Virus record (IMG/VR): IMGVR_UViG_3300009098_000002
Span: 1-47,166 of that record
Source: a virus
Length of the DNA: 47,166 bases
Direction: 5' to 3' (one strand)
Part shown: positions 23,892 to 47,166 of the stretch, in pieces
Position numbering within the stretch: position 1 is the stretch's first letter
Layout of the letters: the number at the start of each line of letters is the position of its first letter
Translations under genes and position numbers: made by a program
Notes under the pieces: model-generated
Seen by the model: only the letters and a program-made list of their open reading frames with translations
Database searches by the model: none
Told to the model about the DNA's origin: nothing

Positions 23892-26279
23892 TTACTGGGT
23901 GTGTCCGTTTCTGCGCTTCTGTTGCGCCGAATGGCTCTGTCCGCGAGGACCAACTGCGTGCTGATTTCCGCCAGGCGGTTGCGGAGTATGCGGCTTAGAG
24001 GCTTGGCCTTTTTGCGCGCGCTGCTGCCGGAACTGGGCGTCGTTGTTCGGGTTGCCTTGCTCACTTTGCCCTCCCTGCTGTTGCGGTTGCCCGCCCGCTT
24101 CGGCTTGCGCGCCCTGCATGGCCCCTTGCACCTGCATCCAGTTGGACATGTTTTGCACATGCTGAATGAAATGGGTGTGCGCGGCAACCTTAGTTTGTGG
24201 CTGCTGTGTCTCGAAGTCGTCGGAGTTCATCCAGTGCTTTAAGGTCTGGATGTGGGCTTGGTCGTTCTGGATGCCCATGATGGGCTGCGGGAACTGGCCC
24301 GTCTGTTTACCGTTCTCGATTTCCTTTTGCTGTACCTTGGCGTCTTCGTTGTAGTCATTCAAGTCGGGTGACAACTGCCACAACTCTAATATTTTTCTCT
24401 GAACTACCTGGGGAAGCTGCGGATTGAATGCCCCCGCCGCTATCGCTTGTGTAAAAGATTGTTGTTTTGTTGGGTCTAACGGGATGATCGACGCCTTCCA
24501 CACGTAGGAACCAGGTTTCAGCATCTCGCCACGCAGTTTCTTGAACTCCCATATTCCATTGCTCCCCATGGCCGCCTGAATGCGATCGTCCAGCCAATTC
24601 TCGCAGGCCAGCTTGGTCATTTGCCCCGCCCACTTTTCTTCTTCTTCCCGATACATGAGTTGAAGCGGACCAAGCATTTGCTGATTTTGAGAAATAGCGG
24701 TTTGCTGTCCACCGAATGTGTCAATTCCAGGGACATGCTGTCCCATTGAAGCGGGGCTAATCCCTGAATGAAACTGCATATCTTGCTTTTTAGCTCCTCG
24801 CCAGTTCCAAACATCCGGTGATAATTGGCCGCCAGGAAGCCATTTGGCGACTTGATCCAGATTACGTTGGCCAAGGTTTTTCACCTCAATCATGTATCCA
24901 GCGTCATTGATGATGTTGTTTTTGTCGAGCTTTTGTGTATCCGCTAGTAAGACGGGGAGGGTGTTGTAATCGACGTGACGCAGGATGAGGCGGTCCACCT
25001 CGTCCACGAGCATCTGATCGGGTAATAAATCATCATCTCCGTCTCCCCAGAACCGTCCTTCGACGTGGATGTGCTTAAAATGAGTCCAGTGGTCGTCCAT
25101 GGACTCGTTGCGGGATTCAAGGAGACAATCATCGGCTTTCGCGGCATACAGTCCATCGGGAAACTTCTTTCTCAGTTCGTCATCGAAAAAGAACTGGTTC
25201 GGTCTGATCCATCCCTGAATGAGCGTGGTCTTGGCCTGCGTCACAGCGCGTTCGTACCAGCCGGGATACTGCGTCGGATCGCTTGGCAATTCGGGAATCG
25301 CCTGCTGGTAAATGAGTCCAATATCTTCCGAGGCATTGACCGTGTCACCCGGCATGTAGGCATCGCCGCCGAAGTCAGCCTTGGGGTAGGTGGCTTGCAG
25401 CGAAGGCTTGTCCACCATGCGCACGCGCAGCAAGTACGGCGCCTGCCAAAGATTCTTTACTGAAGACCGCACGTAGACTTCGAATGGCCAGACCACTTCG
25501 CAGATTTCCTGCCCTTTGGGATAAACGGTTTTTCCTTGCAACTGAGGCACGGTTGCTGTGTTAGGAGGGATTTGCTGGATTGGCTGTGGCGCAGATGGGC
25601 CACACGAAGGGCACACAGATTGAATACCTTCTCCGCCCATTCCGCAATTCGGGCATTGCCATGATCCCGCATCAAGTTGCACCTCCACGTCTTCGAACAC
25701 CGGGGCGGTGACGAACCCGTAGCGGGGATCGACCGAATAATAGTTATACCGGAACGAGTTGCCGTAAATGCGCAGGTTCGTCGCTTCCATGGCGCGGATG
25801 GCGTCGTAGCCGATGTTTTCCTTCATCATGGCCAGCGTGGCGCGCGCGGCTTCAGCTACTCCCTGTGCTTCGATGTCGGCGGAAGTGGGCTGCGCTATGA
25901 ACTCAGGGGCAGTCTGTACATACATGGCAGCTCCATATCGGATGTAAGCACGATAATCGTTGGCTGCGAAACTGTACTCGGCCTGATTAACGCCGACGGA
26001 ATCAAAAGACATCCCTGTGTCGCTTAACACGGAGTCGTGGTAACCCGTATAAAACAGGTGGTTTCTAAACCATTTTCTGTGGAGTTGTAATTTCTCGTAT
26101 TGACTTTGGTAATAGTACTGATCTAACAACCACAGGATGCGTTTCTCGGGCTTCTCACTTTGGGGATATGATGGAAAAACATCCTTCTGGCTTTTTGCCA
26201 AAGGGCTGCGGATTGGTTTATCTCCGCCCTTAAATAGCTGGCGAATGCCCGCCATCAATCCAGAAGGTGCGTTACCCAT
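23892..26279 (-). CDS. Portal protein with inserted zinc ribbon
   Basis: This is a 795-residue protein. A helical N-terminal half includes NENIGYDAI-like segments and a strand-rich wing (YGNSFRYNYYSVDPRYG), and the long C-terminal helical/Gln-rich tail has low complexity. Size, order (terminase upstream, scaffold and coat downstream) and layout fit a portal of the 80-90 kDa class. Residues about 207-228 hold two Cys pairs (C209, C212 and C223, C226), a zinc ribbon not part of a usual portal. It may stabilise a loop. The tail (AQKGQASKPHTPQPPGGNQH) is disordered. Confidence 0.85.
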   Translation of the reverse strand: MGNAPSGLMAGIRQLFKGGDKPIRSPLAKSQKDVFPSYPQSEKPEKRILWLLDQYYYQSQYEKLQLHRKWFRNHLFYTGYHDSVLSDTGMSFDSVGVNQAEYSFAANDYRAYIRYGAAMYVQTAPEFIAQPTSADIEAQGVAEAARATLAMMKENIGYDAIRAMEATNLRIYGNSFRYNYYSVDPRYGFVTAPVFEDVEVQLDAGSWQCPNCGMGGEGIQSVCPSCGPSAPQPIQQIPPNTATVPQLQGKTVYPKGQEICEVVWPFEVYVRSSVKNLWQAPYLLRVRMVDKPSLQATYPKADFGGDAYMPGDTVNASEDIGLIYQQAIPELPSDPTQYPGWYERAVTQAKTTLIQGWIRPNQFFFDDELRKKFPDGLYAAKADDCLLESRNESMDDHWTHFKHIHVEGRFWGDGDDDLLPDQMLVDEVDRLILRHVDYNTLPVLLADTQKLDKNNIINDAGYMIEVKNLGQRNLDQVAKWLPGGQLSPDVWNWRGAKKQDMQFHSGISPASMGQHVPGIDTFGGQQTAISQNQQMLGPLQLMYREEEEKWAGQMTKLACENWLDDRIQAAMGSNGIWEFKKLRGEMLKPGSYVWKASIIPLDPTKQQSFTQAIAAGAFNPQLPQVVQRKILELWQLSPDLNDYNEDAKVQQKEIENGKQTGQFPQPIMGIQNDQAHIQTLKHWMNSDDFETQQPQTKVAAHTHFIQHVQNMSNWMQVQGAMQGAQAEAGGQPQQQGGQSEQGNPNNDAQFRQQRAQKGQASKPHTPQPPGGNQHAVGPRGQSHSAQQKRRNGHTQ

Positions 26280-26682
26280 TCGCTGATTTCCTTCTTCCTT
26301 CCATGCGCCGCCACTCTCGTTGCGTTTTGGTCATGGCAGGGAAAAGAATAAGATACCGAAGACAGTCTTCAATTATTTGTTTCTTCACAATGCAGTAAGG
26401 TCGGATTGAGCGAAGAAAAATATAGGCAGATTCTTTTTTGCTGAAATCCAGAATGTACTGTGCTTTCTTGCTGATGACTCGATCTGGCGTTTTACGGACA
26501 CGCTTCTCTAGCCTAACCTTGCTGTGGATTCCATGGGCCGCAAGAAATCTCTGTATTCGCAACAGCACACCTTGATCCGACTGGTAAATAGAAATGAAAA
26601 CATTTGTGACATACTTTTGGCCCATTGGAACATAAATGGATCCTTCACCATCAAAGAATCCGGCGATGTAAGCCCAATTCAT
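26272..26682 (-). CDS. LAGLIDADG homing endonuclease
   Basis: This is a 136-residue single-motif protein. The N-terminal IAGFFDGEGSI is the LAGLIDADG helix with its catalytic acidic residue. The following strands (VFISIYQSDQGVLLRIQRFL) and the later AQYILDFSKKESAYIFLRSI fit the half-domain fold, so it should act as a dimer. It is free-standing, wedged between portal and a small gene with an ATGA overlap upstream and eight bases of overlap with the portal. It probably mobilises itself by cutting phages that lack it. Confidence 0.9.
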   Translation of the reverse strand: MNWAYIAGFFDGEGSIYVPMGQKYVTNVFISIYQSDQGVLLRIQRFLAAHGIHSKVRLEKRVRKTPDRVISKKAQYILDFSKKESAYIFLRSIRPYCIVKKQIIEDCLRYLILFPAMTKTQREWRRMEGRRKSANG

Positions 26683-27378: not shown

Positions 27379-27970
27379 TGATTAGTTTCACCGCTTCCCG
27401 CCATCCTAAAATGTCATCGTCCCGCCACAAACTGCACACGTCACCACACGCGACCGTCGTTTGCAGCGCGCGGCAGAAGCCAGTGGGACTATCCCACTTT
27501 TCCGTCTTGCCGTCCACGATGTAATGATCGCAATCATCGCCGCCGTCGCAGCCGCCGCAGTTCGCGCCGCCATGTTTCAGTCCTGGTTTCGGTGCGTTTA
27601 TCCAAACGAGTCCCATGTAATCGGGATCACCGGCACCAAAATAATCAATGTTCTTGGAAACTCCGTAGGTATGCATGGAGCAGCAGGGCCAGTATTCGAT
27701 GTCATTGTTGGTGATGTTCTGAATCGGGGTTCGCGCCCCAATGAGAGCGCAGTGTTTGTCATTGCGGAGAAATACGCAATTCGCGCAACTGGCTGGCTCA
27801 TTGTGCATCTCCTCGGCGGTGGTGAACAGCGCTTCGCCCTTGGTGGGCACGATCGGGGTATCGACTTCGGGCAGGGATTTCGCGCGGCGCATGGCGTTGA
27901 CTTTCTCGATCTGGCCCGCACCGTAAACCGGGAAGCCGCCCTTCTCGATCTTAAGATCGCTTCGACTCAT
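27371..27970 (-). CDS. Cys-rich protein of unknown function
   Basis: This is a 199-residue protein. Cysteines cluster in the second half: SCANCVFLRNDKHC, WPCCSMHTYG, then CGGCDGGDDCDHY and CRALQTTVACGDVCSL. This could bind zinc or an iron-sulphur cluster, or form disulphides. The C-terminus (WREAVKLING) overlaps the next start. The ATGA overlap with the fibre gene suggests a fibre-related or virion function. Confidence 0.6.
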   Translation of the reverse strand: MSRSDLKIEKGGFPVYGAGQIEKVNAMRRAKSLPEVDTPIVPTKGEALFTTAEEMHNEPASCANCVFLRNDKHCALIGARTPIQNITNNDIEYWPCCSMHTYGVSKNIDYFGAGDPDYMGLVWINAPKPGLKHGGANCGGCDGGDDCDHYIVDGKTEKWDSPTGFCRALQTTVACGDVCSLWRDDDILGWREAVKLING

Positions 27971-30501
27971 TCTTCAGTGCCTTGTACGTTCACAACCACG
28001 CCGCCGCCCAATGCTCCGGTTCCACCAAGTGCGAGGTTTACATTGAGCACGTTTCCTGCGGCTGCGGATAAAACCCCGAAGTACCCCATGTCAATCAGTC
28101 CAGAATTGAATTGCACGCCATTGGTCGTTGCCGCAGCAGCGAGGGGAACAAAAATTACGTACTTGACATTCATATCCGTACTGGAATCTTGAAACGTGAT
28201 CGTAACCGTGCCTGCGGTGGTGGCAAATGCCGCATTTCCTACTACTGTGACTTGAAACTTCAGCAAGCGGAATTTATTGCTGGCTCCTGGCGTCCAGACA
28301 GCGGTATTGCCGGAGGCTGTTGCAATGGCTGCTCTGAAAACGGTTGGGGTACGCTGCTTGCTCCAACCCTTGCGGACAGCATCCGTGGTTCCCGAAAAGG
28401 CTCCACCATAGACGGATTGAGCAACGAAAAGAGGAGCGTTATTAAAACCGGGGTCAGGAAGCGGCACGACGTTCGACGTGTTATCGCCAATCGCAAACGA
28501 ACTGGTAGCACTTTGAATCGAAGCCGAACCCTGCGAAGGCGCTTGCTGGGTCGCCATCGCGCCGATACTGACTGTGCCGGTCCCGGTAATTACGGTGGAC
28601 AACCGCACCCGAAACGAAGCCCATCCGGTTACGTCAACCTGAAATCCTTGATTTGTTGCCGAAAGCGGTTGCGTGCCATTTCCGGTATTCAACGCAGCGC
28701 GCGTCTTTATGTTCGTAGCGTCAATCGGATACCAGTTGGTTCCCGCCGTGGTATCGGAAACCTCAAACGTGATGGTTCCTGCGGTGATTGTGGCGGTGGC
28801 GCTCCAAGAAACAGCGATACCGGCATAGCCGATAATATTGGTCAGGGTGATTGCCGTGTTCGATCCCGTGGCGGAAGTCCATGACCCGGTAACTTCAGGG
28901 ACATTTCCGCCCATAATTCTTTGGCTGCCGTGAAGATCAACGGACTCTAGAACCTGATCGCCTTCCGTCCATGTGGGAGAATTGGCATTTCCAAGAGCTG
29001 GTAGAGTTCCGATATTCGTTGCGTCAGGAGCGGCGTTGTTGTTGGTCAGGTTGCCAGCCGCCGTAACCGTTCCCGTTACGGCTGTTGTCGATCCCGTGTC
29101 GGCAATAACGTGCCCGATCACTGCGGCACCAGCATCGAGTACGGTATGCAGGTTCGTCCCGGTTGGCTGGACTACTGTTACGTTTCCAGTAACTGCGGTC
29201 GTGGACCCTGTATCCGCGATGACATGACCGATGACAGCTGCAGAGGCATCATTGATGACATGCCCGATGACGGCGGCCCCGGCATCCAGCACCGCATGTA
29301 AGTTCGTGCCCGTACCTTGCACCACGGTCACGTTGCCAGTTACGGCGGTCGTCGAGCCAGTATCGGCAATCATATGGCCGATGACCGCTGCGCCTGCGTC
29401 GAGGACGGCATGAAGATTGGTTCCCGTTCCCTGCGTTACCGTGACAGTGCTCGGCGGCGTAAGGGTCGTGATCTGCGCCGCCGTCAAAACAACTGGCATG
29501 GAAGCCGCAGCGAGTGCTTGACCCTGCGAAGGAAGTTTGTCTACGTCCGCCTTGATGGCAGCAAGATTGCCGCCTGCTTCGAGCGCCAACAAGGAAGTAT
29601 TTAGATTCGTTCCGGCATTCGCGGTAACTGTACCGCTCACTGCGACCGTTCCTGTGACTGCGGTAGTTGAACCCGTATCGGTGATGACGTGCCCGATGAC
29701 GGCTGATGAGGCATCGTTAATGACATGCCCGATAACTGCGCTGCCAGCATCAAGGACTGCGTGCAGGTTCGTGCCGGTACCTTGCACTACCGTTACGTTG
29801 CCAGTTACCGCGGTCGTGGAACCTGTATCCGCGATGACATGGCCAATAACAGCAGAACTCGCATCGTTCACCACATGCAGGTTCGTACCCGTCGCTTGCG
29901 TAACCGTTACGGTGCCGCTGACTGGTTGCGTGGCAGGGAAGTTCGATACCGCCACGGTCCCGCTGACCACGGTGTTCAGGTTTCCCGAGTTGTCGGTGGA
30001 AAGCTGGTGCTGATTGGTATCCGGTCCAACGCCCGAAACAAGCACGGGATTGATGGTGCTGGCCGCGGTGCCGTTGGCTTGCGTGCCCTGCACCAAGGGA
30101 TCGGCCCAGACCGCGCTTGTATTGCCCGGCTGTGAAATGGGAATTTGTCCCGCGTGCGTGAGCGTTCCGGTAATCGGAATGCCATTGATTTCCGTGGCGT
30201 CCACAACACCGGTTCCCGAATGCCCCAGTGTGGCGCCCGTTCCGACAACCATGAAAGCGGAAATATTGGTTCCGCTCATGATCTGATCGAAAGTCGGAGC
30301 GCCCCCGCCGCCGCCGCCTTCAATGGAAACCCAGGTATAGGGATTCTGCGACGTGCAGCGTTTCACCAGATGATTCTGAATATCGACCCACAGATCATCG
30401 ACCCAGGGAATCGGGAAAACCTGATCGCCCGCCAGCGAAGTCGAGGACTGGTCTGGCGGGTTGCCCTGCTTATAGATCGTCGGTGGACGGAAGAAACTCA
30501 T
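27967..30501 (-). CDS. Repetitive beta-rich tail fibre protein
   Basis: This is an 844-residue protein. The N-terminus (FFRPPTIYKQGNPPDQSSTS, then a Gly-rich hinge IEGGGGGGAP) may anchor to the tail. The middle (about residues 187-490) consists of repeats built on TGTNLHAVLDAGAAVIGHVI followed by ADTGSTTAVTGNV, with partial copies inserted. The C-terminal part (about 540-844) is a beta-rich domain without repeats. Repeated Thr/Val strands of this type form beta-solenoid or triple-stranded fibres. It likely extends the receptor-binding apparatus. Confidence 0.8.
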   Translation of the reverse strand: MSFFRPPTIYKQGNPPDQSSTSLAGDQVFPIPWVDDLWVDIQNHLVKRCTSQNPYTWVSIEGGGGGGAPTFDQIMSGTNISAFMVVGTGATLGHSGTGVVDATEINGIPITGTLTHAGQIPISQPGNTSAVWADPLVQGTQANGTAASTINPVLVSGVGPDTNQHQLSTDNSGNLNTVVSGTVAVSNFPATQPVSGTVTVTQATGTNLHVVNDASSAVIGHVIADTGSTTAVTGNVTVVQGTGTNLHAVLDAGSAVIGHVINDASSAVIGHVITDTGSTTAVTGTVAVSGTVTANAGTNLNTSLLALEAGGNLAAIKADVDKLPSQGQALAAASMPVVLTAAQITTLTPPSTVTVTQGTGTNLHAVLDAGAAVIGHMIADTGSTTAVTGNVTVVQGTGTNLHAVLDAGAAVIGHVINDASAAVIGHVIADTGSTTAVTGNVTVVQPTGTNLHTVLDAGAAVIGHVIADTGSTTAVTGTVTAAGNLTNNNAAPDATNIGTLPALGNANSPTWTEGDQVLESVDLHGSQRIMGGNVPEVTGSWTSATGSNTAITLTNIIGYAGIAVSWSATATITAGTITFEVSDTTAGTNWYPIDATNIKTRAALNTGNGTQPLSATNQGFQVDVTGWASFRVRLSTVITGTGTVSIGAMATQQAPSQGSASIQSATSSFAIGDNTSNVVPLPDPGFNNAPLFVAQSVYGGAFSGTTDAVRKGWSKQRTPTVFRAAIATASGNTAVWTPGASNKFRLLKFQVTVVGNAAFATTAGTVTITFQDSSTDMNVKYVIFVPLAAAATTNGVQFNSGLIDMGYFGVLSAAAGNVLNVNLALGGTGALGGGVVVNVQGTEE
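29040..29940 (-). repeat. Tandem repeats inside fibre gene
   Basis: Units of about 114 bases (38 codons) recur, with shorter partial units. Conserved codons encode TGTNLHAVLDAG and AVIGHVIADTGS. Copies differ mostly at synonymous sites. Such arrays change length by slippage or recombination and set fibre length. Confidence 0.8.
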
Positions 30502-38653: not shown

Positions 38654-38742
38654 CGCGCATCATGTGCTGGCTGTTCCCGCGCTGGATTCCCCTGAACGAG
38701 CAAAAGCGCATTGCTTTGCGCCGTGTGAGGCTATCGCTATGA
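38650..38742 (+). CDS. Very short basic peptide
   Basis: The product is 30 residues from ATG 38650. Overlaps of ATGA type exist on both sides, which favours real translation. It is Trp/Pro-containing at the start (TRIMCWLFPRWIPLN) and Arg-rich later (ALRRVRLSL), an amphipathic or membrane-active type. Confidence 0.4.
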   Translation: MTRIMCWLFPRWIPLNEQKRIALRRVRLSL

Positions 38743-42292: not shown

Positions 42293-42616
42293 ATGAGCCG
42301 AAAACGCCACAACGTAGACAGTGAAGCGACTGCGGGCGCTAAATTTTTCGATAAAAGGTCATACGTCACGCACACCGGCAAGGAGTTCCGTTTCGGTGCG
42401 GACAAGACAGTGCTTCGTCTGGAATGTTTTTACCGCGATCAGCACACCTGCACATCATGCGGAAAGTGGCATTACCAATGTGATTTGGATATGCACCACA
42501 TTCTGCCGCTTGGGAAGGGCGGCGATGACAAGCTCTCGAACGTCACGACCCTTTGCAAGTGGGGCGATTGCCATAAAAAGCTGCATGTTCGCCCGCGGTT
42601 CGGAGTAGCCGTATGA
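42293..42616 (+). CDS. HNH endonuclease
   Basis: This is a 107-residue protein. CTSCGKWHYQCDLDMHHILP then LGKGGDDKLSNVTTLCKWGD and CHKKLH shows the full HNH core with its two Cys pairs around a zinc and the catalytic His of DMHH. It may nick DNA during packaging or act as a homing-type nuclease. A 92-base gap separates it from ERF. Confidence 0.9.
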   Translation: MSRKRHNVDSEATAGAKFFDKRSYVTHTGKEFRFGADKTVLRLECFYRDQHTCTSCGKWHYQCDLDMHHILPLGKGGDDKLSNVTTLCKWGDCHKKLHVRPRFGVAV

Positions 42617-42855
42617 GCGAAAACGGAGAAGCTGGCCTGGCTTGTCCTAAATGTAGCGGCGCCACGATTGTTATTGATTCCAGGCCAAGTGAGAGCAAAG
42701 CAGCTGTTCGCAGACGACGTCAATGCTCGAACGGGAGATGCAGAAAGAGATTTACAACATACGAAATACATCAGCGCCTATTTTCGGAAATCGAATGGGC
42801 CAACAGCTTTCGGGTACAACTTGCAAAACTATTGCGATATGCAGGGAAAGAATAG
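42613..42855 (+). CDS. NrdR-like zinc-ribbon protein
   Basis: The product is 80 residues, overlapping the HNH gene as ATGA. CPKCSGATIVIDSRPSESKA then RRRRQCSNGRCRKRFTTYE is the zinc-ribbon domain of NrdR, down to the RFTTYE. The ATP-cone domain that follows in NrdR is absent. NrdR represses ribonucleotide-reductase genes. A stand-alone ribbon could bind the same NrdR boxes or act locally. Confidence 0.85.
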   Translation: MSENGEAGLACPKCSGATIVIDSRPSESKAAVRRRRQCSNGRCRKRFTTYEIHQRLFSEIEWANSFRVQLAKLLRYAGKE

Positions 42856-43022: not shown

Positions 43023-43583
43023 TTGCAGGGATTTGTCAAGCTTAGGCGCGGCATTCTGGAGCACCTTCCAGACCGCATTACTGCCGATGAGTGCCTCTGT
43101 TACACGTTAATCATACTAATGGCCGATCACCGCTCGGGTGCGTGGCGCGGGTGCGCTCAGGCAATGGCAAGGAAGACCGGATGGTCTGTTCGCCAGTGCC
43201 AAGTGGTCCTGAAGTCACTCCGGCAAAAGGGCTACATCACCGGACAGCCCACCACTGGCCGCGGTCAGTACCTTATCCGGGTCGTTAAGTATTTCCACAA
43301 GGCGCATGGGGATGCGCTTTATACCCCAGAAGGCGCACCGGGATGCGCTTTAAGGCCTCAGAAGGCGCATGGGGATGCGACGTATCAAGAAGTACTACAA
43401 GAAGAACTACACAAGAAAAAACCCGCGCAACCCCGGCGCGGCCACTCCCCAGAGCTAATTCGTCAGATCGAAGCAAAGCAAAGGCGCCTAGAAAAAGAAG
43501 CGGATGCGTGGCGGGAGGGCCAGGTAGGACGGAACTGGATGAGCGACCAACTCGAAGAATGGCGAAAGGCTAAAGCCCTATGA
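43023..43583 (+). CDS. Winged-helix replication protein
   Basis: The product is 186 residues from TTG 43023 (GGGGG five bases upstream). The start GFVKLRRGILEHLPDRITAD and following ADHRSGAWRGCAQAMARKTG then WSVRQCQVVLKSLRQKGYIT make a winged-helix domain like the N-terminus of DnaD-type phage replication proteins. The C-terminus is a charged helix (EAKQRRLEKEADAWREGQVG). Three iteron-like dyads lie inside its coding region, which suggests it binds its own gene as origin. Confidence 0.75.
   Translation: MQGFVKLRRGILEHLPDRITADECLCYTLIILMADHRSGAWRGCAQAMARKTGWSVRQCQVVLKSLRQKGYITGQPTTGRGQYLIRVVKYFHKAHGDALYTPEGAPGCALRPQKAHGDATYQEVLQEELHKKKPAQPRRGHSPELIRQIEAKQRRLEKEADAWREGQVGRNWMSDQLEEWRKAKAL
43299..43384 (+). 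repeat. Iteron-like dyads in the replication gene
   Basis: Three near-identical 23-base units (AAGGCGCATGGGGATGCGC and flank) start at 43299, 43330 and 43362, spaced 31-32 bases, about three helical turns. Each holds a GCGCAT-4-ATGCGC dyad, perfect in the first and one mismatch in the others. The 31-base step puts the middle copy in another reading frame, so the sequence is kept as DNA, not as protein. Confidence 0.8.
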
Positions 43584-44095
43584 CCACAAAAACTGAGTAT
43601 CGGGAGTACATCGCGTCCGAACCGTGGCAGAAGCGTAGGAAGGAGTTCTTACTGGCCTATCCGCGTTGCAACCGCTGTGACATTCCAAGGTGGCTAGCAG
43701 TGGTCGCCTACGATCAAGACCTGCACGTTCACCATAGAAATTATGCTCGCGTCGGCCAAGAGATAGATGATGATTTAGAACCCCTCTGCAAGAGATGCCA
43801 TGAGCTAGAGACGTTCGGCCATTCTTACTTGCACGTTCCGAGAAGCGAGCCTTGCTGCATTTGTCTGCAAGAATTTTCATGGGTTAGGGTCGATGGCGAA
43901 GCCATGCATCAACCCGGCTTATGTTCCGAGTGCTCGATGATTTTAGCTATGTGTATCGGCAACTTCGATGGCGGCCGGATGAGTTTATCAAGTCTTTCTC
44001 CCGTCGGTGATCCGATTGAGAGTATCCGGCGAGAATTAGACCGTGTTGAGAGACGTATGGAAGAAAACAGAAAAAGGCTTGAGGCGAAGCAGTAG
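43580..44095 (+). CDS. Second HNH-type endonuclease
   Basis: This is a 171-residue protein (ATGA overlap with the replication gene). It contains CNRCDIPRWLAVVAYDQDLH then VHHRNYARVGQEIDDDLEPL and CKRCHELE, the HNH layout with two Cys pairs. A second Cys-rich patch (CCICLQEFSWVRV; CSECSM) follows, and the C-terminus is a coiled coil (RRELDRVERRMEENRKRLEA). It may be a nicking or homing enzyme near the putative origin. Confidence 0.85.
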   Translation: MTTKTEYREYIASEPWQKRRKEFLLAYPRCNRCDIPRWLAVVAYDQDLHVHHRNYARVGQEIDDDLEPLCKRCHELETFGHSYLHVPRSEPCCICLQEFSWVRVDGEAMHQPGLCSECSMILAMCIGNFDGGRMSLSSLSPVGDPIESIRRELDRVERRMEENRKRLEAKQ

Positions 44096-45471: not shown

Positions 45472-46212
45472 ATGACGAGCGCGAGAGAGTGTCACATCTG
45501 CCGATTCGCTGGTAACGGCCAGGTAATGACATCCGAGAAGGATTGTCCGAACGGCGACCACAATGAGCAGATGTACTCGAAATCCGAAGTAGACGCCCTC
45601 CTGCGCGACGAGCGGGCACGTACCGCGACCAGAGATCATCACATTGACGTGTTACGTCGTGCGGATGCGGCCCTGAAAGCCGACCTAGCGAGAGAGCGGG
45701 CACGCGCCCTCGAAAACAGGGGCATAGAAACTCCATGTTCTCGCTGTGGCGGATTGGGAGTTCGTGCTTATGCCAGTACAGCCACTTGGAGCGGCGGCAT
45801 GGGCGGCAACATGATTACTTCTGACGTTTGCGACCATTGTTGGGGAAGCGGCGATGAACACAGAAAGTGGGTCAACCTTAGAGATAAGCAAGCCGACCTA
45901 GCCAGAGAGCGGGCACGCGCCGACGAGTGCCAATCGCGCATAGATTCACTTATGGTGGATTGTGCGGATCTCCGTTTGGACCTTAGGGCAATGGAGGATC
46001 AGATCGACGAAGTGCGGAAGCTGGCGGTTGAGCAAATGACTCACGATGGAAATTGCCGATGGGTAGTGCTCGGTTCAGACTTCGGACCTTGTAATCGCTG
46101 TTCGGTGCTAGCCATCCTAGACAGGAAGCTGGATGCGGGTGGGAGCGTTGCGGGCGAGGCAGAGCCGCTTTCGGGCGACCCGCCTGCTAACTCAGATCGG
46201 AGTGCACGTTGA
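45472..46212 (+). CDS. Coiled-coil protein with zinc knuckle
   Basis: This is a 246-residue protein. Two Cys patches are seen: CHICRFAGNGQVMTSEKDC at the start, and CSRCGGLG then CDHCWGSG in the middle (DnaJ-type CxxCxGxG). Coiled-coil regions contain the repeated block DLARERAR(A) at two places. The end DPPANSDRSAR resembles that of the junction-spanning gene. The stop overlaps the next start as TTGA. It may be a structural or scaffolding factor for early functions. Confidence 0.7.
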   Translation: MTSARECHICRFAGNGQVMTSEKDCPNGDHNEQMYSKSEVDALLRDERARTATRDHHIDVLRRADAALKADLARERARALENRGIETPCSRCGGLGVRAYASTATWSGGMGGNMITSDVCDHCWGSGDEHRKWVNLRDKQADLARERARADECQSRIDSLMVDCADLRLDLRAMEDQIDEVRKLAVEQMTHDGNCRWVVLGSDFGPCNRCSVLAILDRKLDAGGSVAGEAEPLSGDPPANSDRSAR

Positions 46213-46717: not shown

Positions 46718-47166
46718 AGCTGACGAACGAGCAACTGGCGCAGTGGCGAAATTTGGTTGAACGAGGCGTAAAGCCCACCAAGCCGGGAGATGATACCTTT
46801 ACATATTTCAGAGACGAATTAAAACTTCTCGACCACATCGACGAGCTGGAATCCGAGTTAGCCAGAGAGCGAGCGTCGTCGGCTGCGTTGCTGGAGAAAG
46901 CGATTGCCGCGACCGATGCGGATGTAACAGGCATGATCATTCACACCCTGCGTTCGATGGCCCTGAATCTGAAAGACGACTACCGCAAGTTGATGGAAAC
47001 AGCAGCGGACGCATTCGAGAAGCACCCACGGGTACCACAATCCACCACTGACAAAGCAGGAAATCGGGGACAGGAAGGAATCGCAATGACACCAGAACAT
47101 CAGATTAATCTACTGCTTGACCGAATAGATACGCTGGAATCCGAGTTAGCCAGAGAGCGTGCCTCG
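46714..47166 (+). CDS. Coiled-coil protein, 5' part of junction-spanning gene
   Basis: From ATG 46714 the frame is open to the window end and continues at base 1 to the stop at 357, giving about 228 residues. The first part has KLTNEQLAQWRNLVERGVKP and a coiled coil with ELESELARERASSAALLE. A second, near-identical block (TLESELARERASAAALLE) follows across the junction. The likely origin is tandem duplication with an in-frame fusion, as an internal ATG with its own ribosome site marks the second copy. The function is unknown. Confidence 0.75.
   Translation, partial: MKLTNEQLAQWRNLVERGVKPTKPGDDTFTYFRDELKLLDHIDELESELARERASSAALLEKAIAATDADVTGMIIHTLRSMALNLKDDYRKLMETAADAFEKHPRVPQSTTDKAGNRGQEGIAMTPEHQINLLLDRIDTLESELARERAS
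47044..47166. repeat. Right copy of the 123-bp terminal overlap
   Basis: This is identical to bases 1-123; see that entry. The gene at 46714 passes through it without a break. Confidence 0.95.

Follow-up and report, generated by a model that had tools for sequence, protein, structure and literature searches.

Within the genome of a soil phage (IMG/VR record IMGVR_UViG_3300009098_000002; the stretch analysed, positions 1 to 47,166, is referred to below as the window), three phased repeats lie inside what appears to be a gene for replication, and the locus raises the question of what these repeats do. The original prediction held that they are an iteron origin or an operator inside the initiator gene. 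Our analysis indicates that the three repeats are very probably the replication origin of the phage, which would lie within the initiator gene as it does in lambda.

The repeats lie in a replication initiator-like gene

The gene that hosts the repeats and the genes on its two sides are the following.

43023-43583, plus strand: replication initiator-like gene matching phrog_270; TTG start assumed, with AGGGGG upstream
42293-42616 and 43580-44095: HNH endonuclease genes flanking the initiator gene

That the host gene is a replication gene is supported by the match of its product to phrog_270 (phage replication initiation; E=2e-6), which covers residues 21-183 and spans both the wHTH and the C-terminal part. 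Weaker matches were obtained to the O-like families phrog_678, phrog_391 and phrog_345 (E 0.0012-0.036) and to DnaD-like proteins, and a match to HTH_36 fell below the cut-off of that family. A sequence search of the PDB returned only unrelated ribosomal proteins, with E above 0.06. In the predicted structural model an N-terminal winged helix (residues ~9-84) is followed by a disordered linker (~89-123) and C-terminal helices; pLDDT is ~70-92 over most of the wHTH and below 50 at residues 89-119 and 121-123. Foldseek searches with this model returned wHTH folds, MecI/BlaI repressors among them, none of which was below E=0.001. The repeats occupy codons 91-121 and code exactly for the disordered stretch.

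The gene directly after the initiator gene encodes one of the two HNH endonucleases, and the neighbourhood also includes genes for an Erf-like annealing protein, a DNA methylase and a RusA-like resolvase. A scan of ten neighbouring proteins revealed no recognisable helicase or P-like loader. Positions 42613-42855, a little upstream of the initiator region, encode a protein of 80 aa whose zinc ribbon is of the NrdR type (Pfam E=3.5e-15). An endonuclease look-alike of the LAGLIDADG type (MNWAYIAGFFDGEGSIYV, by reading only) is found elsewhere in the window, in ORF 26272-26682 beside ORF 23892-26279.

Three direct repeats in alternating frames

The array consists of three 27-bp direct repeats, all read on the coding strand.

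43295-43321, plus strand: iteron 1, CCACAAGGCGCATGGGGATGCGCTTTA, with the perfect dyad GCGCAT-GGGG-ATGCGC at 43302-43317
43326-43352, plus strand: iteron 2, CCAGAAGGCGCACCGGGATGCGCTTTA, in the other codon frame, its dyad with one broken pair
43358-43384, plus strand: iteron 3, TCAGAAGGCGCATGGGGATGCGACGTA, with a diverged right half

The positions of the three phased units were confirmed, with start-to-start distances of 31 and 32 bp. The unit had been described as 23 bases long; these bases do repeat, but the likeness extends to 27, and the units are almost tandem (27 of each 31 positions). A GCGCAT-4-ATGCGC dyad had been ascribed to every unit, and it is perfect in unit 1, while units 2 (GCGCAC..ATGCGC) and 3 (GCGCAT..ATGCGA) each keep 5 of the 6 pairs. 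Perfect 6-bp dyads with a loop of up to 8 occur in 1.6% of the 27-mers of the window. The middle unit does lie in a different frame from the outer two: relative to the gene start at 43023 the frame positions are 2, 0 and 2, so that the middle unit is translated differently (KAHGDAL, EGAPGCAL and KAHGDAT for units 1, 2 and 3, respectively).

The three-copy 23-mer match in the array scored 19/23, which was reached by none of 300 dinucleotide shuffles (maximum 15) and by none of 300 synonymous-codon shuffles (maximum 18). Elsewhere in the window, no stretch of 561 bp contained a comparable array, the next best scoring 14. A candidate for a fourth site at 38702-38728 on the minus strand, a partial iteron match of 19 bits, was rejected, as 4 of 200 shuffles equalled its score.

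These results bear on the explanation that the units encode a repeated peptide and that the likeness of the DNA is a by-product of selection on the protein. Units 1 and 3 are indeed in the same frame and both encode KAHGDA, but unit 1 is closer to the out-of-frame unit 2 (89% identity) than to unit 3 (81%), the synonymous shuffles keep the peptide and fail to recreate the array, and the linker peptide differs in the homologous initiator described below. The shift of frame contradicts this explanation, to which we attach a negligible probability. Selection on the DNA, as originally proposed, is upheld both by the shuffles and by the frame of unit 2.

The window holds other repeats as well. Seven copies of a 33-nt repeat (29104-29865; spacing 36/114/315), with 67-85% identity to the reference copy, lie inside the minus-strand ORF 27967-30501 and probably reflect a repeated motif of a structural protein. 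Close to the end of the contig, duplicated DNA at 45677-45926 and 46824-47166 gives two early proteins coiled-coil-like repeats of the ADLARERAR type.

A homologous initiator gene has unrelated repeats with the same geometry

Searching with the downstream HNH protein led to a 56-kb viral contig (IMGVR_UViG_3300021171_000001, hereafter L114), in which the same HNH gene is directly preceded by an initiator gene. Its product is homologous to the window initiator over the full length (40% identity; tblastn E=2e-25) and is the one true full-length homologue found. The C-terminal part FWxxYPRK...TWLNxxRWxDE of most relatives is absent, as a full motif, from both proteins. The L114 gene contains three copies of AAAAAGTGACGACACTAATGACGCCACTTT with spacings of 31 and 32 and frames 2, 0 and 2; as in the window, the third copy has a diverged right half. 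Two of the copies agree at every position over 30 nt. The L114 unit, too, is a dyad, and two units together fold as single-stranded DNA (z=-6). In contrast to this shared geometry, the L114 unit shares no evident sequence with that of the window, and its array lacks the high GC content. A check suggested with the original prediction, that dyads should be present at the same site in relatives whose proteins differ, thus gave a positive answer in L114, and related initiators carry arrays of different sequence (see below).

Further searches extended over several collections. In phages, a tblastn search with the window protein yielded no match at E<0.001 and only three weak ones at E up to 10, and scans of viral and genome contigs for close relatives found nothing. 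The combined profile of L114 and the window found no relative in genome contigs, nor did the L114 protein in phages and plasmids. When viral contigs were scanned at the DNA level for the paired window iteron, only two were retrieved, and both hits were rejected as coiled-coil-like or low-complexity protein repeats in other coding sequences.

Could the array be a neutral tandem duplication, in which slippage recently duplicated a functionless 31-bp unit within the linker? The nearly tandem arrangement and the identity of the two L114 copies would fit. However, L114 combines unrelated sequences with the same spacing and frame pattern, 37 genes have arrays at this place (see the survey below), and the adjoining tract is conserved at the codon level. 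This explanation is disfavoured, and we regard it as very improbable.

An A-rich tract and a GC-rich dyad follow the array

Two further elements adjoin the array on its downstream side.

43380-43424, plus strand: A-rich, purine-rich tract, a putative DNA unwinding element, 36% GC, with codon-level conservation in L114
43423-43441, no strand assigned: GC-rich dyad CCGCGC-AACCCCG-GCGCGG, conserved in L114 at the DNA level

The GC content of the tract is within the lowest 1% of the window's 45-mers. Tract and dyad make up a codon-conserved stretch, 43389-43439, in which all 12 residues that are identical between the window and L114 also share the codon, vs. 21 of 58 elsewhere. Such a same-codon run arose in 97 of 100,000 permutations, for a region that had been noticed before it was tested for codon conservation. 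Unrelated iterons at equal spacing, next to a codon-conserved tract and dyad, imply that the geometry and the opening region were kept and that the recognition sequence was replaced.

The role of the GC-rich dyad in the window is uncertain. On the minus strand it resembles the hairpin of an intrinsic terminator (stem CCGCGC-n7-GCGCGG, then the T run GTTTTTTC), and the L114 counterpart keeps a 5-bp stem and TTTTTTC. The dyad, though not the array, might accordingly act as a terminator of leftward, minus-strand transcripts, shielding the origin or marking the end of an antisense RNA, with no role in origin opening. Yet a minus-strand terminator-like site follows just 2 of the 37 surveyed arrays, lambda, EBPR podovirus 2 and JBD68 have a non-terminator dyad at that place, and no minus-strand promoter was identified. 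We consider a terminator role possible but on the whole unlikely for the window, and as a feature of the whole family it was rejected on the count of 2 in 37.

Out-of-frame arrays recur at the same site in related initiator genes

We surveyed 82 related or comparison initiator genes, lambda O included, and scored each for an array exceeding all 60 of its synonymous shuffles. Such arrays were found in 48 genes, out of frame in 37 of them, and the first repeat copy was located at codons 79-128. Spacings of 22 or 23 bp accounted for 51 of the 74 intervals; among the surveyed arrays the 31/32 pair occurred in the window alone. The 60 bp after the arrays were A-rich on the coding strand (37% A vs. 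28% in whole genes, T being unchanged), and a dyad past the A-rich tract stood out at the 10% level in 11 of 38 cases, a minority.

The phrog_270-type initiators of EBPR podovirus 2, Arthrobacter phages Abidatro and Kuleana, Pseudomonas JBD68 and G005/L016 resemble that of the window in their wHTH and in the out-of-frame iterons at codons ~80-120, but differ from it in a spacing of mostly 22-23 bp (two turns) and in a longer C-terminal domain. G005 is a contig from a sister phage, whose terminase is 61% identical to that of the window phage. Its initiator gene, of another sequence, has AAAGGGTGCA at the same place in three copies, 22 bp apart and out of frame; in the survey statistic, another, in-frame repeat of this gene scored higher. 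Repeats were also observed in genes next to HNH relatives on other contigs: three out-of-frame copies of GGGGGTCCACCGGA, 22 bp apart and beyond chance, in L122 (4456-5373), and non-chance arrays in L119/L120 (3327-4004).

Given 37 such genes among 82, we suggest that out-of-frame linker repeats of wHTH phage initiators may serve as a practical origin marker for uncultivated phages.

A putative origin within the initiator gene

The sequence evidence thus favours the iteron origin that had been proposed: the phrog_270 match of the host gene, the same-site arrays in relatives, the geometry in L114, and the A-rich tract with its dyad all point to it. By analogy with lambda and SPP1, the initiator (43023-43583) would bind the three dyad iterons via its N-terminal winged helix, probably as one dimer per iteron. 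With the sites 31-32 bp apart, i.e., about three helical turns, the bound dimers would lie on one face of the DNA and could form a compact complex. This complex may strain the adjoining A-rich tract until it opens, with the dyad at 43423-43441 bounding the opened region, and the C-terminal part of the initiator would recruit the replicative helicase or its loader. The DNA of the array would be free to change without breaking the protein, because it codes for a flexible linker. The GC skew begins to rise in the right-hand part of the window; it cannot place the origin, since gene orientation changes in that part as well.

The same dyads could conceivably be an operator or autoregulatory site, at which the initiator or another phage regulator blocks or slows transcription through its own gene. 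A distance of nearly three turns between dyads fits cooperative repressor dimers, the MecI/BlaI wHTH repressors are among the weak fold matches of the product, and binding by the initiator could serve both roles. Regulation of this kind is nevertheless made less likely by the location of the array, 270 bp inside the coding region and not at a promoter, and by the lack of another convincing copy in the window, where the sole distant look-alike (38702-38728) is not clearly beyond chance. Moreover, no sigma-70-like site adjoins the array, and the order of an array followed by an A-rich tract and a dyad is origin-like. We consider an operator function improbable and retain the origin as the preferred reading.

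Comparison with the lambda and SPP1 origins

The lambda origin is located centrally in gene O. Its iterons are hyphenated inverted repeats, each of which binds two O molecules, and after them comes an AT-rich tract where unwinding takes place (PMC7466680, PMC6022878). O occupies each hyphenated-dyad iteron as a dimer, beside the AT-rich region (PMC6022878), and its two domains are connected by a flexible linker (PMC7466680). The annotated iterons of lambda have spacings of 20, 24 and 23 bp and are therefore out of frame as well. The window shares with lambda at least three iterons in the initiator gene, located at linker codons between the N-terminal DNA-binding domain and the C-terminal part, as well as the hyphenated dyad in each iteron (with the broken pairs of units 2 and 3) and the order of iterons, adjacent A-rich tract (43380-43424) and dyad.

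The two systems also differ. Lambda has four 18-bp iterons at about two helical turns (20-24 bp, a spacing shared by most relatives), whereas the window has three 27-bp units at 31 and 32 bp. This spacing counts against a lambda-type origin, as do the lack of a recognisable helicase or loader gene among the proteins scanned, the missing C-terminal motif and the finding of just one full-length homologue. The iteron sequences are unrelated, the window protein matches O-like families weakly (E roughly 0.001-0.04), lambda O did not match the profile of the relatives, and lambda has a P-like loader while none was recognised in the ten proteins scanned here. With this spacing, a loader neighbour not found and weak similarity to O, the sequence does not establish strict membership of the lambda O family for the window. 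In SPP1, oriL lies inside gene 38, an origin within a phage gene like the one proposed for the window; SPP1 has a distant oriR too, whereas the window has no second site clearly beyond chance.

The window and L114 offer a natural experiment, in which two initiators with 40% identity go with unrelated iteron sequences in one and the same geometry. The pair opens the questions of which initiator residues read the iteron and why the spacing is held while the sequence is free. It might represent a separate sub-class of phage origins located within genes, with an initiator complex that assembles on three iterons at a distance of three turns. Geometry, A-rich tract and GC dyad would be fixed, the iteron sequence would be replaced wholesale together with the recognition domain, and the spacing would be the conserved code. 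We put this forward tentatively, with belief falling slightly short of doubt. An origin inside a gene is of a kind known from lambda O and SPP1 gene 38; what is new here is a three-turn spacing kept through the complete turnover of the iterons.
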